Source: Pegea sp. RAD2-039
Lineage: Eukaryota > Chordata > Thaliacea > Salpida > Salpidae
Direction of reading: 5' to 3'
DNA length: 64,000 bases
NCBI GenBank assembly: GCA_034620365.1
Contig: JAQGEQ010000191.1
Coordinates: 310,001 to 374,000, forward strand
The position numbers and the translations under genes were made by a program. Positions 394-56,300 of the stretch are shown one piece after another (position 1 is the stretch's first letter; each line of letters begins with the position of its first letter). The notes beneath the pieces were generated by a model. The model was not told the DNA's origin and made no database searches. It was given only the letters and a program-made list of their open reading frames with translations.

Positions 394-3300
394 TCAGCAA
401 GCTGTCGTCATATTCGAAGCTTCCAACGCTACAGGAGAACAAAGGTTACGTGATGACGTAATCATTGATCGCGAAGCTATCCAGTCTTTCATCGCCGCTT
501 TAATCTGGTGCTGCTGTTGTATGTTGATGACGTCATCATCACCAATTACGTCAGGTAACGGCACTTGGTGGTTACTAGGCAACAACGGTGGTTTGTTGGA
601 AGACTTTGATGACGACTTTGTGTCCACAGATTCGCATCCTGAGTCTTTTCGCGTTGATGACGTCATAATGGTCGGCGGTAGATCATGTGGCGTCATCATT
701 AAAAGTGAGCGATTATGTGAAGGACGCGAACTGTATACGTCATCAGTGAAGTAATGATCACCAAATGACGTCATCGGTGTCATAGAAGTTGTCACTGCAG
801 AATGCTCCGCTGGCATCCAGCATCGGTCGCTATGACCATAGATTTCACAAAGACGTGTGCATCGAGATTGTGACGTCATGATCTCACGAGCCTCCATCTA
901 AAAATAAAGATGAAATCATCAAGTAAGGACGTCATCAACAATCAGTAGCAAACAGTGACGTCATCAACTTACTTGTCGGTGACTTTCTGGCAGAACTTGA
1001 TGACTGATTAGGGATTTTCTGAAAAAAAGCCAAATTTGTCATTAGAAACTTGATGACGTCATCACTCACATTTCGTTGCTGCTGAGATCACTTCGTGACA
1101 CCGAATCGCGTTTGCTAATTGTCGATGAGGCAACGGGGGCTTTGTAAACAGGGGGTGTCGGGGAGTTTGGGGTGCTAGAGGCTTTTCGACGTCGTCGAAG
1201 ACAAAAAATGAAAATAAGAACAAAAGTGATGAGAAAGATGAAGACCCCAGAAACGATGAGGGCGAGAAAGAGCGTAAAACTCATTTCTGAGCTTTTCACG
1301 TGTCCTGTAGCGCTGATGACGTCATCACCGACTTCGATCATCACCACTAATCGAGTAGTGAGTGGAGGAAGACCGTTATCGCGCGCCTGTAAATCATATG
1401 ATGACGTCATCATAGTAGTAGTGTCTAACCGTCTCTTACCGCGATAATAACTTCGTATTCGCCCTTTAAATCACGACCCGAGACATCATCAACTGTCATT
1501 CGGCCACTGATTGAATCAAGCAGAAAACAGCCGGAAACTGGTTGCCCATCGCGTCTTGTGACGTCATAAGAGAATGTGACGGACGAGTTAAGATCGTTGT
1601 CAGTCGCCTGTAAGTATAGCAAATGAGTTTTGGAAAGTTTGGAAAATTTCTGGGGTCCCTCCCCAACCTTAAATATAAAACCGGATTTTTGTGACAGATT
1701 AATCCGCGAGAAGTTCTTCGGAGGTTCAAAAAATCTTGGAGCGTTGTCATTGACGTCATCAACGTGAAGCTCCAATTCACAAACCGCTTCCTCGCCACCT
1801 CCATCAACCACTTTTACTTCTATCTATAACCAAAAACTTCTTCATCTCACTATGACGTCATCATTACGTCATCACCTGATACGCGGTGCGCTGTTCAAAG
1901 TCCAGTTCTTCAATCAACGTGACGTCACCGCTTCTGGAGTCGATCGCGACTGGTAACTTATTAGATGAAGTTATCATATATTTGATCTTTCCATAAGTAG
2001 ACTTGATGAGATCATTAGCTTCATCTGGATCTTGTGCATACGTCACAACTCCGACGTCATCAAGATCAAGAGCTTGGATCTGAGTGATGAGTGTATTGAT
2101 GGGAGTGTCTTCCTTGATGCGGATGGTGTGAGGACAGTTAGTCACGAAATATGGTTTGTGATCATTCTTATCCAAAATCACCACTTTAATAGATCGATAG
2201 ATGCATCTATGAGAAGAAGATTAGGGAATGACTCTATCTACACTGTGACGTCATTACCTTCGATGTGGGAGTCCTCTGTCGCATGCTTTGATCACGATTT
2301 TCATTCGTTGATCTTTTTCATGATCAAGCTCTTTTTTGATCCTTAGAATATCGGTTTCATCGATTTCGAAGTCATCGCTTGCTGTTGATATTTAAATAAA
2401 GTTAGTGGACCAGTCCCCCAACCATGAGCGTACCGTAGAAAGTTGACAAGTCGTGTGGCGAGGCAAAGGTGCCAGCTGCTAAATCAACGTGTCCGTTTAA
2501 GTTGGAATCGCCGTCGCTTTTACTGATGTGTAGAATCGCGCTTCCTGGTCGATAAGATTCGTCGATGTAAACTGAAAGATTTTCAACTCTTATTTCGAAT
2601 TTATTTTTTAAAAAGAATTTTCTGCTTAAGATTTAGAATAAAAACAAGCAGAAGACTTGATTAGAGCTCAACAGCAAGATCTGTACGAGTCTTAATTGTC
2701 CATCACTTTTGAGAAGCGCTCAATACAAGCAATTATACTACTCCTAAGCCACTAAGTATTATTTGATCGTGAAACTAAAAGGTTTAGTATTAGTAACAAG
2801 AGTGTTTTTATGAGACTAAGAGGTGATGCGGACCGGTGCCCTTGGAAACCACTACTAATCACTGTCCTCATTTTGGGCAACATCAAAATATTAACAAAAT
2901 GGTTAACATCTGGATTCATGTGGAACGACTCGACGAACGAAAAGGTTGGCCAAAGGTTAATGACAAAATGCTCCTGGGACTGGACTCCCTTCAAGAATGC
3001 TCTCTGACTTTTGGCTGCAATAATTTTTATTGATGACCAGGGTGTCCTCGCAAGTTAAGGTGCTGTATTAACCAAACAATTATTTTCTGTTTTAAAGCCT
3101 CGGTTTATAGTCAACTTATGTATGTGAGGACTCACTTGTTTCATTTGCGCAATTAAAGAAGCAAGTAAGATGTAGTTCAGGATCATGATTGTTCTCATCT
3201 TCAACATGAATTTGAACAATTGAAGTTCCTTCACGAGGATTGAATTTGTCATCATCAACAGCTGATATCATAATTTTCATTCTGCATCAAGCTTCATTTA

Positions 3301-53300: not shown

Positions 53301-56300
53301 AGAACAATAATTAAATCCTGATCCGAAAGATGGAACCCTAAACACGTCATCAACATGAAACCAATCAAGCAGAACAATGATGACGTCATCACCTGAGCGC
53401 GGTGGTAAGCTTGAGGGAACCATCGATCAAGATTGAAACAGTCCCACCCAGAAGTCCGAACATCTTTCGTGAAGGTTGATGAACTATTTGAATACAATGC
53501 TGCAAACAAACCACGTGACGTCATCGTCGCCATCACGTGCTTGTGACGTCACGAACCCATTTGTTATCGACGAGTGGGAACTCGTTGAGGGCTACTGTCA
53601 AGTAAGTTTTCTTGGTTGCCACAGCAACCACTAGTTGGCAACCAACAGTAAAGAAAGCTTCTACTCCAGTTCCTTGTTCTGTGTAAAAGCTGTCGAAGAA
53701 ATGACGCTGTCATGACGTCATATGGTGATAATGTAACATACCTGTAGAGTTGTTTGCGTTTGACTGAAGTATCTACGTTTGGCGAATAGTGGACACAAAC
53801 CCAAGTATGGACACAAAAAGCTGGTCCAGACCATTTTTTAATTGCAGGTATTGTGATGCCCTTAAAAAATTACAAAATTTTGATTGACAGGTTGGTGAGC
53901 TTGATTAACAGGTGGATGAGTTTGATTAACAGGTGGGTGAGCTTGATTGACAGGTGGGTGAGTTTCATTGACAGGTGGATGAGTTTCATTGACAGGTGGG
54001 TGAGCTTGATTAACAGGTGTGAACTTACTGCTGATTCATCTTGAAGGTCGAAGAAGAAGGCCGGTTTACAATCAGTTAGTTCCTTGTAAGCCATGGCACC
54101 AAGTGAACTCAACAAACGATTGAAATATTTGTTCTAAAAAATGGAAAAATGTTGATGGTTCGTTTCCTGATTCATCAGTTGGTTGGTGAATATTTATCCA
54201 CCATACAATTAGCAAGTAACCAATCAGCAACCAGTTATTTGATGTTTCTTACCATATGCTGATGTTGTTCACTATCTTGACGAAGTATTTCAATAAATTT
54301 TGAAGTTTGAAGAGGTGACATTGAATAACTTCCTAATTTTTCCATCATTTCAATTAAATTGTAAACAGTTTGATCAAATAATGTTTGATGTTTCATCAGG
54401 ATATCTAGAATTAAAGATTCAGTTGTCATAGCAACAAACCAGTGACTTGGTTACCTAGTATATCAGTTATGATTCTGTTTTTCATCGCTATTATCATATT
54501 TGAAATTGAAGATGTGAAAAGATGAGATAGAAGAGAAGAAAGCCAAACTTGTTGTTGCTCCTAAAAAATAATTGATGATGGTCAGTTCTCAGCACCCTCA
54601 ACCACCAAGCACAAAATTTGTTTGCCAGACAAGTTATTAGGGACTTGGTGTTGTTGGCGAGGAGTTTTTACAAGTCAAGGTGCTAAATTGAAGCAACTAG
54701 CTTTTTATTTTCAGTGTAGAATCAATTAGAAGTGAAAAATATTTCAAGTTGACATCGTCATTAACCTGTTTGATATCAGGAAGCCATTCCAAGATCAGTT
54801 TAGCGATGAAGATATTCTTAATAGTCCTGCTGTGAAAGACACCATCACAAGATTCGACAGTCTGAAAAAGATTTCAAAAATTTTCAAAAAGATGAAAAAA
54901 GAAGAAGAAACTAAATGAAATTGAAATCATGCAAACAGAAGTCACGTGACTGTTCTAACTGACCATATTAACCAGAGCAACAAACACTTGGCTGGTTGGT
55001 ATAGAAGCTCTCTGAAGTTTGGACAACAAAAAGTTGCTGAAATGTTGGCAGAAGACATCCTAATGAAATGATTGATATGAAAAACAAAAAGTTCAACAAA
55101 AAAACAAATCGAATCATGCTAACAATGACAAGAGAAATCGTGCAGTTACCATGCGTGACGTCAACATATGAGCACTTACCCTAGCAACTACTGAACCGGT
55201 TACTAATGACGTCATGACGTTGATGAATTCTATCGCGTATTGTTCACTCGTGTTTTTATCGTTGATAGCTGAAATTAGTTAGTTGGTTACTGAGTAGTTA
55301 AGATCACAAGACACAAAGAGGATGAAGAGAGATAGATGTAACCCTGGGACTATTAGATAAATCTTGAAGATCATGATAATTATTTTAAGTTTTTTTAACG
55401 GACCAATCAGCTTTTTGTAATTTTTTTTAGAATAATTAATCAGATTTTCAAATATTCTTTTTTAAATCAAATTTGAAAAACCTAAAATGAAATTTTGAAA
55501 ACTTTTTTCAAGTTTTATTCATTTTGAAAAGTCAAAGCCCCTAAACCATCTACGAGTTCCTACTTCTAAAACTCTACAATCTAAGCACGTGACCACACAA
55601 CGACGAAATGATATTTTTCTGAATGTTGATTTTATGAATGATAAAAAAGGTTCACGTAGGAGAAATATAAAGATGAAGATGAATGAGCTTGTATGAGGTC
55701 ACGTGATCAACTAACTTTCACAGATATTTGTCAAAACATTCTTCAATTGATTAAAACAACCAAGTTGAAAAAGTTCAGTTTGTAAAGCGATCTTGTCATC
55801 GACATCCAGAATGTCAGGAATCACTCCTGGTGGTAAAATTTGCTTTTTAGGCAACTCCTTTATGAAGATGTGAGACTTACGAATCATTTGAAGTTGAATT
55901 GATGGTTGATGATCCGTTTGTGATAAGATTTTGAAGAATTTTTTCAAAACTGTCGCTACTTTTAACTGGCACTAAAAAAAGATTCGACATTTTCAAACTA
56001 CACTTCTGAAAATTACTATTACAACTTTCAAAAGATTCAAAGTTCAGGACATACTTGGGGAGTTCAGGGCATACTTGGGGGCTCAGGACATACTTGGGGG
56101 ACTCACAGCATACTTGGGGGACTCACAGCATACTTGGGACTCAGGGAATACTTGGGGCTTAGGGCATAATTGGGGGAATCAGGGCAAACTTGGGGGACTC
56201 AGGGCAAACTTGGGGGAGTCAGGGTATACTTGGAGACTCAGGGCAAACTTGGGAAGCCCAGGGCATACTTGGGGGACCTCAGGGCATACTTGGGGGACTC

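Follow-up and report, generated by a model that had tools for sequence, protein, structure and literature searches.

Why should one perfect palindromic octamer, TGACGTCA, recur so often in a short stretch of a chordate genome? The stretch, called the window below, comprises 64,000 nucleotides of the Pegea sp. RAD2-039 assembly GCA_034620365.1 (contig JAQGEQ010000191.1, positions 310,001 to 374,000). An initial annotation had described about 80 perfect sites in it, concentrated in introns of about 50 nt in unrelated genes, with a splicing enhancer or RNA hairpin, a DNA-level signal or a micro-mobile sequence as possible causes. Our analysis argues for a double-stranded-DNA signal with a CREB/ATF (bZIP) core rather than a splicing signal or a micro-mobile insert; among the options offered, the DNA-level one, which included bZIP binding, fits best. 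The explanation we prefer, with confidence just short of even, is that TGACGTCA is a gene-body element read by a bZIP-type dimer and kept by selection for a chromatin function.

Abundance and sequence constraint of the octamer

The window contains 76 perfect copies of TGACGTCA, against a mean of 0.56 and a maximum of 3 in 100 dinucleotide shuffles, in keeping with the initial estimate of about one or fewer expected per 64 kb. The excess is real and larger than was first claimed: across the 105.7-Mb assembly (387 contigs), TGACGTCA occurs 27,792 times and its reversed word 969 times, corresponding to a genome mean of 0.26/kb compared with 1.19/kb in the window. The intervals at 11.0–18.6 kb and 30–44 kb are free of copies, as described. 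The commonest 12-base context, GATGACGTCATC, accounts for 16 of the 76 window copies, too few for the statement that sites usually lie within one longer context; genome-wide it is present 3,824 times, versus 4 for its control word.

The octamer is also sharply bounded. In a 274-kb sample (the window plus loci L002–L022), all 24 words that differ from TGACGTCA at one position together yield 130 copies versus 187 perfect ones. Ordered by mismatch position from outermost to innermost, these 130 copies divide into 17, 35, 13 and 65, and the small share at the outermost bases (17/130) indicates that the outer bases are constrained too. Two CpG-transition words supply 38 of the 130 copies; their genome-wide counts (5,503 and 5,567, versus 1,373 and 1,300 for the reversed controls) amount to a four-fold excess, indicating that decayed or weaker sites exist, in smaller numbers than perfect ones.

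Copies are unevenly distributed among regions. Among 17 arbitrary 10-kb segments taken from 17 contigs, 12 lack TGACGTCA and the remaining five hold 36 copies. On contig C1, the first 1.56 Mb contains 100 sites, versus 89 in four 10-kb pieces at 2.02–2.15 Mb that were chosen for density. Each of these four pieces carries 15–31 motifs, and adjoining genes within the domain differ strongly, as in locus L020, where one predicted gene contains 30 motifs and the others 0–1.

Placement relative to genes

Gene models were produced by a simple ab initio gene finder trained on the sample from sequence only, with the motif masked during training and decoding. The finder erred visibly, giving the LSM7 region an incorrect strand in one run and building an inconsistent gene at 8.4–10.9 kb; because it forbids in-frame stops, the absence of the motif from the frame that contains a TGA stop is by construction. 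With these models, predicted exons account for 34 of the 76 window copies, introns <90 nt for 36, longer introns for 6 and sequence outside predicted genes for none, the last count being soft, as the 13 copies at 8.4–10.7 kb may belong to upstream or 5′ untranslated sequence of the protocadherin-like gene. Densities outside genes, in exons, in introns ≥90 nt and in introns <90 nt are 0.0, 1.35, 0.64 and 9.6 per kb in the window, and 0.04 (4 copies per 99 kb), 0.39, 0.18 and 1.90 per kb in the 17 arbitrary segments. The gene-body preference of TGACGTCA holds in the sampled DNA. Tiles classified by GC content, a comparison that does not depend on gene models, contain the motif in 6 of 314 cases below 30% GC versus 37 of 54 at ≥40% GC.

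Twelve predicted genes, one of them the doubtful 8.4–11.1 kb model, carry at least three motifs and are termed motif-rich; contrasts between rich and poor genes are partly circular because of this definition. Together the rich genes hold 173 copies, of which 60 fall in introns <90 nt versus 17.1 expected from length (3.5-fold; binomial p about 1e-18), 90 in exons versus 118.6 and 23 in longer introns versus 37.2. Tiny introns are thus the densest class, as had been proposed, but they contain only about half of the window copies, and with 90 of the 173 rich-gene copies in predicted exons the motif cannot be regarded as an intron feature; an intron-only signal was rejected on the same ground. 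Long introns, described as motif-free, are poor in motif yet account for the six window copies given above. The comparison of tiny introns with other sequence was run on the 274-kb sample, and there the claim of a higher frequency in tiny introns was not refuted.

All 11 introns listed initially have GT..AG ends and contain the motif, ten on the minus strand and 18689–18740 on the plus strand; the double occurrences in two of them and the overlap with the 5′ splice site GT at 25273 were likewise confirmed. Within rich genes, the motif is present in 33 of 69 introns of 45–59 nt versus 13 of 59 introns ≥90 nt (p 0.003), and in the shorter class the corresponding figure for other genes is 4 of 49, a partly circular contrast. 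The introns of 45–59 nt that lack it (36/69 in rich genes and 45/49 in others) bear out the earlier view that small introns have no general need of it: tiny introns can do without the motif, and it also occurs outside them. Its position within introns varies widely, exonic copies are distributed evenly along exons, and copies are fewest in the first three tenths of rich predicted genes, whose start sites are those of the models.

Copies within coding sequence

Coding exons of rich genes carry 90 copies; 200 shuffles that preserve both the protein and codon usage average 4.6 and never exceed 11. Exons of other genes carry 3 (shuffle mean 0.7, maximum 3). Exonic copies occupy both open frames. 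In rich genes the motif spells 49 of 108 Asp-Val pairs (2.8 expected) and 41 of 145 Thr-Ser pairs (2.0 expected). The peptides are themselves in excess (DV, 110 vs 53.7; DDVI, 16 vs 0.2; MTS, 27 vs 1.9), which indicates that amino acids, too, have been changed.

The neurobeachin/LRBA-like gene of the window shows how such copies are placed. Its PH-BEACH segment aligns with neurobeachin 1mi1 (E 6e-115), and the Pfam BEACH domain was confirmed on a neighbouring exon (46100–46200). All three exonic copies inside the alignment, a small sample, are locally ungapped, one of them on identical residues; at least in these three cases, the motif was therefore laid over existing codons without insertion.

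These placements bear directly on spread by a micro-mobile sequence or by insertion, which we consider extremely improbable and largely refuted. Tandem minisatellites in L031, in L032 and in part of L020 do contain some copies, as such spread would allow, but none of the three PH-BEACH copies, few as they are, falls in an alignment gap, as an insertion would. The surroundings of copies are unrelated: motif pairs at 20 bp have unrelated spacers, no element was seen around copies, and a 3.2-kb query from the densest region matched only itself and short repeat-like sequences, so that no haplotype copy of this region was found either.

Symmetry, spacing and folding

The symmetry of TGACGTCA extends into its flanks, with a purine (R) at −1, a pyrimidine (Y) at +9 and a preference for T/A at the third position outward. 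The base at −1 is most often A, and ATGACGT is present in most copies. Oriented by gene strand, left and right flanks agree in exons and introns alike. Dyad-symmetric flanks are expected of a homodimer on double-stranded DNA, whereas a single-stranded RNA reader gives no reason for them. CREB/ATF proteins prefer R/Y flanks, and symmetric R..Y flanks are expected of a bZIP dimer; those of TGACGTCA match this pattern.

Neighbouring copies also show preferred distances. In 294 kb, 13 pairs lie at 20 bp, 3 at 21 bp and 1 at 25 bp, and the spacers of the 20-bp pairs are unrelated in sequence. Genome-wide, with tandem arrays included, pairs with gaps of 12, 13 and 17 bp between the two copies number 466, 416 and 251, and complete lists for contig C1 give 21, 15 and 5 places, respectively, once 5 array places at the 12-bp gap are discounted. 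The natural reading of the 20–21 bp preference is two helical turns on one face of the DNA.

Folding offers a direct comparison with an RNA signal for tiny-intron splicing or a pre-mRNA hairpin, an explanation that we judge very improbable. The 3.5-fold density excess in introns <90 nt of rich genes would be expected of such a signal, and the 12 two-motif introns do fold more stably than their shuffled counterparts (mean z −2.04). However, folding of the 35 single-motif introns resembles that of shuffles (mean z −0.39), with the motif halves paired in 8 of 35. Against the same explanation stand the symmetric flanks, the even spread along exons of the half of copies that are exonic, the variable positions within introns and the 45 of 49 introns of 45–59 nt in other genes that do without the motif. 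TGACGTCA is neither confined to introns or exon ends nor strand-asymmetric, as a splicing enhancer or hairpin would be, and the corresponding proposal of the initial annotation is disfavoured.

CpG context, gene identities and candidate proteins

CpG observed/expected (o/e) ratios were calculated over 500-bp tiles with the motif masked and with loci L023–L028, one of which repeats window sequence, excluded. The ratio is 0.65 in 471 motif-free tiles and 1.11 in 30 tiles with at least three motifs, and the difference persists at matched GC of 0.35–0.45 (0.65 in motif-free tiles vs 1.02). By predicted gene, rich genes exceed others by a smaller margin, in exons (0.83 vs 0.66) and in introns <90 nt (0.79 vs 0.53).

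Cluster-bearing genes, named by domain, include neurobeachin-like BEACH, tankyrase-like ankyrin, RCC1-repeat, Ets with SAM_PNT, MTPAP/TUTase, MFS, HLH, TPR, RFC1 and PDZ genes. Few or no motifs occur in the sampled genes for tubulin, Band_7 and HNOB. We read further genes from sequence as putatively FHOD-like, IFT88-like, RIM-like, MOCOS-like and DNMT1-like, although the FHOD-like and MOCOS-like fragments had no Pfam match. A single-function regulon was rejected, as the domain-named motif-rich genes have no visible common function.

The genome contains 11 DNA methylase matches. One set comprises ORFs (open reading frames) of ~860 aa in a single open frame, with three near-equal-scoring copies (C57:825001-826344, C57:819728-821071 and C249:1740707-1742050; locus L033), and contigs C32 and C52 carry a second set, which is intronless. 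In the one methylase examined, we read the catalytic part as probably DNMT1-like.

The closest precedent for TGACGTCA is found in cyanobacteria. HIP1 and the alternative highly iterated palindromes (HIPs) share with it the form of a perfect palindromic octamer, a huge excess and presence in coding and non-coding DNA (PMC4390886), and HIPs, like TGACGTCA in our synonymous-shuffle test, occur in coding sequence more often than codon usage accounts for. HIPs are bacterial, are tied to site-specific orphan methyltransferases and have one-off words that deviate at the ends (PMC4390886). By contrast, TGACGTCA belongs to an animal-type genome, marks some genes only and is constrained at all eight positions.

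The HIP likeness suggests a by-product of repair and methylation as a further explanation, in which, as proposed for HIP1, methylation-directed mismatch repair retains those mutations by which a palindrome becomes complete. In its favour, HIPs offer the closest parallel for a perfect octamer of this kind running through coding DNA (PMC4390886), DNA methylase genes are present, the octamer has a central CpG and the motif occurs in CpG-rich tiles. We nevertheless regard this explanation as improbable. One-off words of HIP1 deviate most at the outer bases, unlike those of TGACGTCA (17, 35, 13 and 65); restriction to some genes and the sparing of intergenic DNA are not obviously expected; and the methylase examined appears, from its putative DNMT1-like catalytic part, to be no orphan bacterial enzyme.

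Two candidate explanations: selection for a chromatin function and self-favouring conversion

Under the preferred explanation, TGACGTCA would be a gene-body DNA element, a dyad-symmetric candidate site at which a protein dimer, most likely a bZIP of the CREB/ATF type, would bind functionally. The ~28,000 perfect copies would be kept by selection on the DNA sequence. Where such sites cluster in the transcribed region of some genes, they would work jointly, with a distance of about two helical turns favoured between adjacent dimers, and might keep gene bodies accessible, CpG-rich and perhaps unmethylated. Tiny introns would owe their high density to freedom from coding constraint and to their place beside exon-dense, motif-favouring DNA. 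What speaks for this explanation is the abundance and near-exactness of copies, their symmetric flanks, the preference for gene bodies in the sample, exonic copies in numbers that protein and codon usage leave unexplained, the overlay on conserved BEACH residues, the favoured spacing, the CpG-rich setting and the presence of DNA methylase and bZIP families.

Periodic An/Tn clusters (PATCs) of C. elegans form an intronic DNA-level pattern that licenses whole-gene expression; unlike TGACGTCA, they consist of A-T runs, have no palindrome and lie outside codons. The identity of the reader is suggested by the core itself, which, central CpG included, is identical to the canonical cAMP response element (CRE) of CREB/ATF (PMC1796609) and makes a CREB/ATF-type bZIP the natural candidate. 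In vertebrates, CREs are concentrated between −1 and −150 relative to the start site, whereas those of Ciona, fly and worm are described as lacking such a bias (PMC1796609); the difference here is that clusters traverse gene bodies and codons.

Several observations weigh against selection on a bZIP-read element. The density of TGACGTCA varies on a chromosomal scale, and in loci L029 and L030 the predicted genes do not cover five of the 39 copies. Across 294 kb, pair distances show no general 10.5-bp periodicity. GC at fourfold sites is modestly raised (0.33 vs 0.26), and TpG+CpA does not drop where CpG rises, which implies that methylation loss alone is insufficient for the CpG richness. No common function is evident among the domain-named motif-rich genes, and the 12 bZIP matches in the genome form an ordinary-looking set.

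Self-favouring conversion, or drive, is an unlikely but serious rival: a bound or perfect site would be copied onto the homologue in meiotic repair and would spread in recombining, gene-rich DNA regardless of host use. A broken, hotspot-bearing chromatid is usually the recipient, so that hotspot motifs get lost, and for drive the sign of this bias must be reversed here. Drive also leaves the near-absence outside genes and the low density in long introns unpredicted, and fourfold-site GC is raised only modestly; GC-biased conversion alone was rejected because of this small difference. The restriction to genes and the scarcity in long introns thus favour selection over biased conversion, whereas the lack of a common gene function and the regional clustering favour biased conversion over selection. 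Drive is further consistent with near-exact copies that are indifferent to gene function, strand, frame and exon or intron, with the overriding of amino-acid composition (DV, DDVI and MTS excess) and with raised GC and CpG nearby. A precedent in sequence is the fission yeast M26 hotspot, which corresponds to the half-site ATGACGT, is bound by the ATF/CREB pair Atf1-Pcr1 and is active in coding and non-coding DNA (PMC6827382). The likeness is one of sequence, through the ATGACGT contained in most copies here, and the passages cited report no such excess for M26 (PMC6827382).

A broader statement, spanning two mechanisms and overlapping with both the preferred explanation and conversion, is that the palindrome has been overwritten on unrelated gene bodies, introns and codons included, by self-favouring conversion or chromatin-code selection, with protein composition changed, as a counterpart of HIPs in an animal-type genome; we advance it tentatively, as a possibility that falls well short of even confidence. 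Sites for transcription factors are as a rule sparse, degenerate and regulatory. In this genome, an exact palindrome is kept at ~28,000 copies, in sampled DNA mostly intragenic, and so strongly that codon and amino-acid choice are shifted. If the chromatin code were true, it would constitute a sequence-defined system for marking gene bodies; if biased conversion were true, the palindrome would clearly exemplify a DNA motif that drives its own spread through coding sequence. Both the word and HIPs were already known. A eukaryotic genome with one palindrome running through gene bodies and codons was not found among the reports listed by an open-access full-text library, in which an excess of TGACGTCA was looked for in introns and gene bodies as well as in sponge and Ciona.

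Features of the window and related repeats

Table 1. Positions of TGACGTCA clusters and of individual motif-bearing introns and codons in the window
Position	Feature	Strand	Remark
293..2253	15 TGACGTCA, introns and exons alike, 3′ part of protocadherin-like gene	gene minus	name from initial annotation
1387..1439	53-nt intron GTAAGA..TTACAG with central TATGATGACGTCATCATA palindrome	minus	
5584..5591	one TGACGTCA in tiny intron 5545–5597		
8423..10681	13 TGACGTCA upstream of protocadherin-like gene		no convincing coding evidence; predicted gene's strand flipped between runs
18709..18716	one TGACGTCA in tiny intron 18689–18740	intron plus	LSM7 name from initial annotation
25061..25272	two TGACGTCA, tiny introns of JmjC/Cupin_8 copy A		25265–25272 overlaps 5′ splice site; Cupin_8 match
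28481..28693	two TGACGTCA at matching sites, JmjC/Cupin_8 tandem copy B		
45087..47703	21 TGACGTCA over tiny introns and exons, neurobeachin/LRBA-like gene	gene minus	
45068..45119	52-nt intron, two TGACGTCA 20 bp apart	minus	
46938..46989	52-nt intron, two TGACGTCA 20 bp apart	minus	
46316..46323	exonic copy encoding DDVI before LPRWAK	minus	locally ungapped vs neurobeachin NDVDLPPWAK
46378..46425	three TGACGTCA at exact 20-bp spacing		spacers differ
46488..46495	exonic copy encoding SDVK, conserved BEACH stretch	minus	ungapped, identical in neurobeachin 1mi1
47534..47541	exonic copy encoding MTS, start of aligned PH-BEACH segment	minus	ungapped vs neurobeachin LST
49546..49905	four TGACGTCA, neurobeachin/LRBA-like gene		
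50721..51238	six TGACGTCA, neurobeachin/LRBA-like gene		20-bp pairs 50916/50936 and 51115/51135
52327..53720	nine TGACGTCA, neurobeachin/LRBA-like gene		
55156..55214	last two TGACGTCA of neurobeachin/LRBA-like cluster		

The JmjC/Cupin_8 tandem duplicate (24356–26115 and 27770–29536) is 96.4% identical, and its copies are too alike to be informative on motif gain or loss. Minisatellites built on TAGCAACCA, with up to 42.7 copies, occupy three intervals of the neurobeachin-like gene (44683–44904, 48567–49332 and 51752–52141), and in locus L031 (1–800) a coding-looking minisatellite of 21-nt units, most of them containing TGACGTCA, precedes a MOSC-like segment. A second palindrome, the E-box GTCACGTGAC, is ~90-fold over its reversed control genome-wide (814 vs 9), with window examples that include 10492–10499. 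A tandem array of TCAGGGCATACTTGGGGAGC with 26.8 copies lies at window positions 56044–56571.

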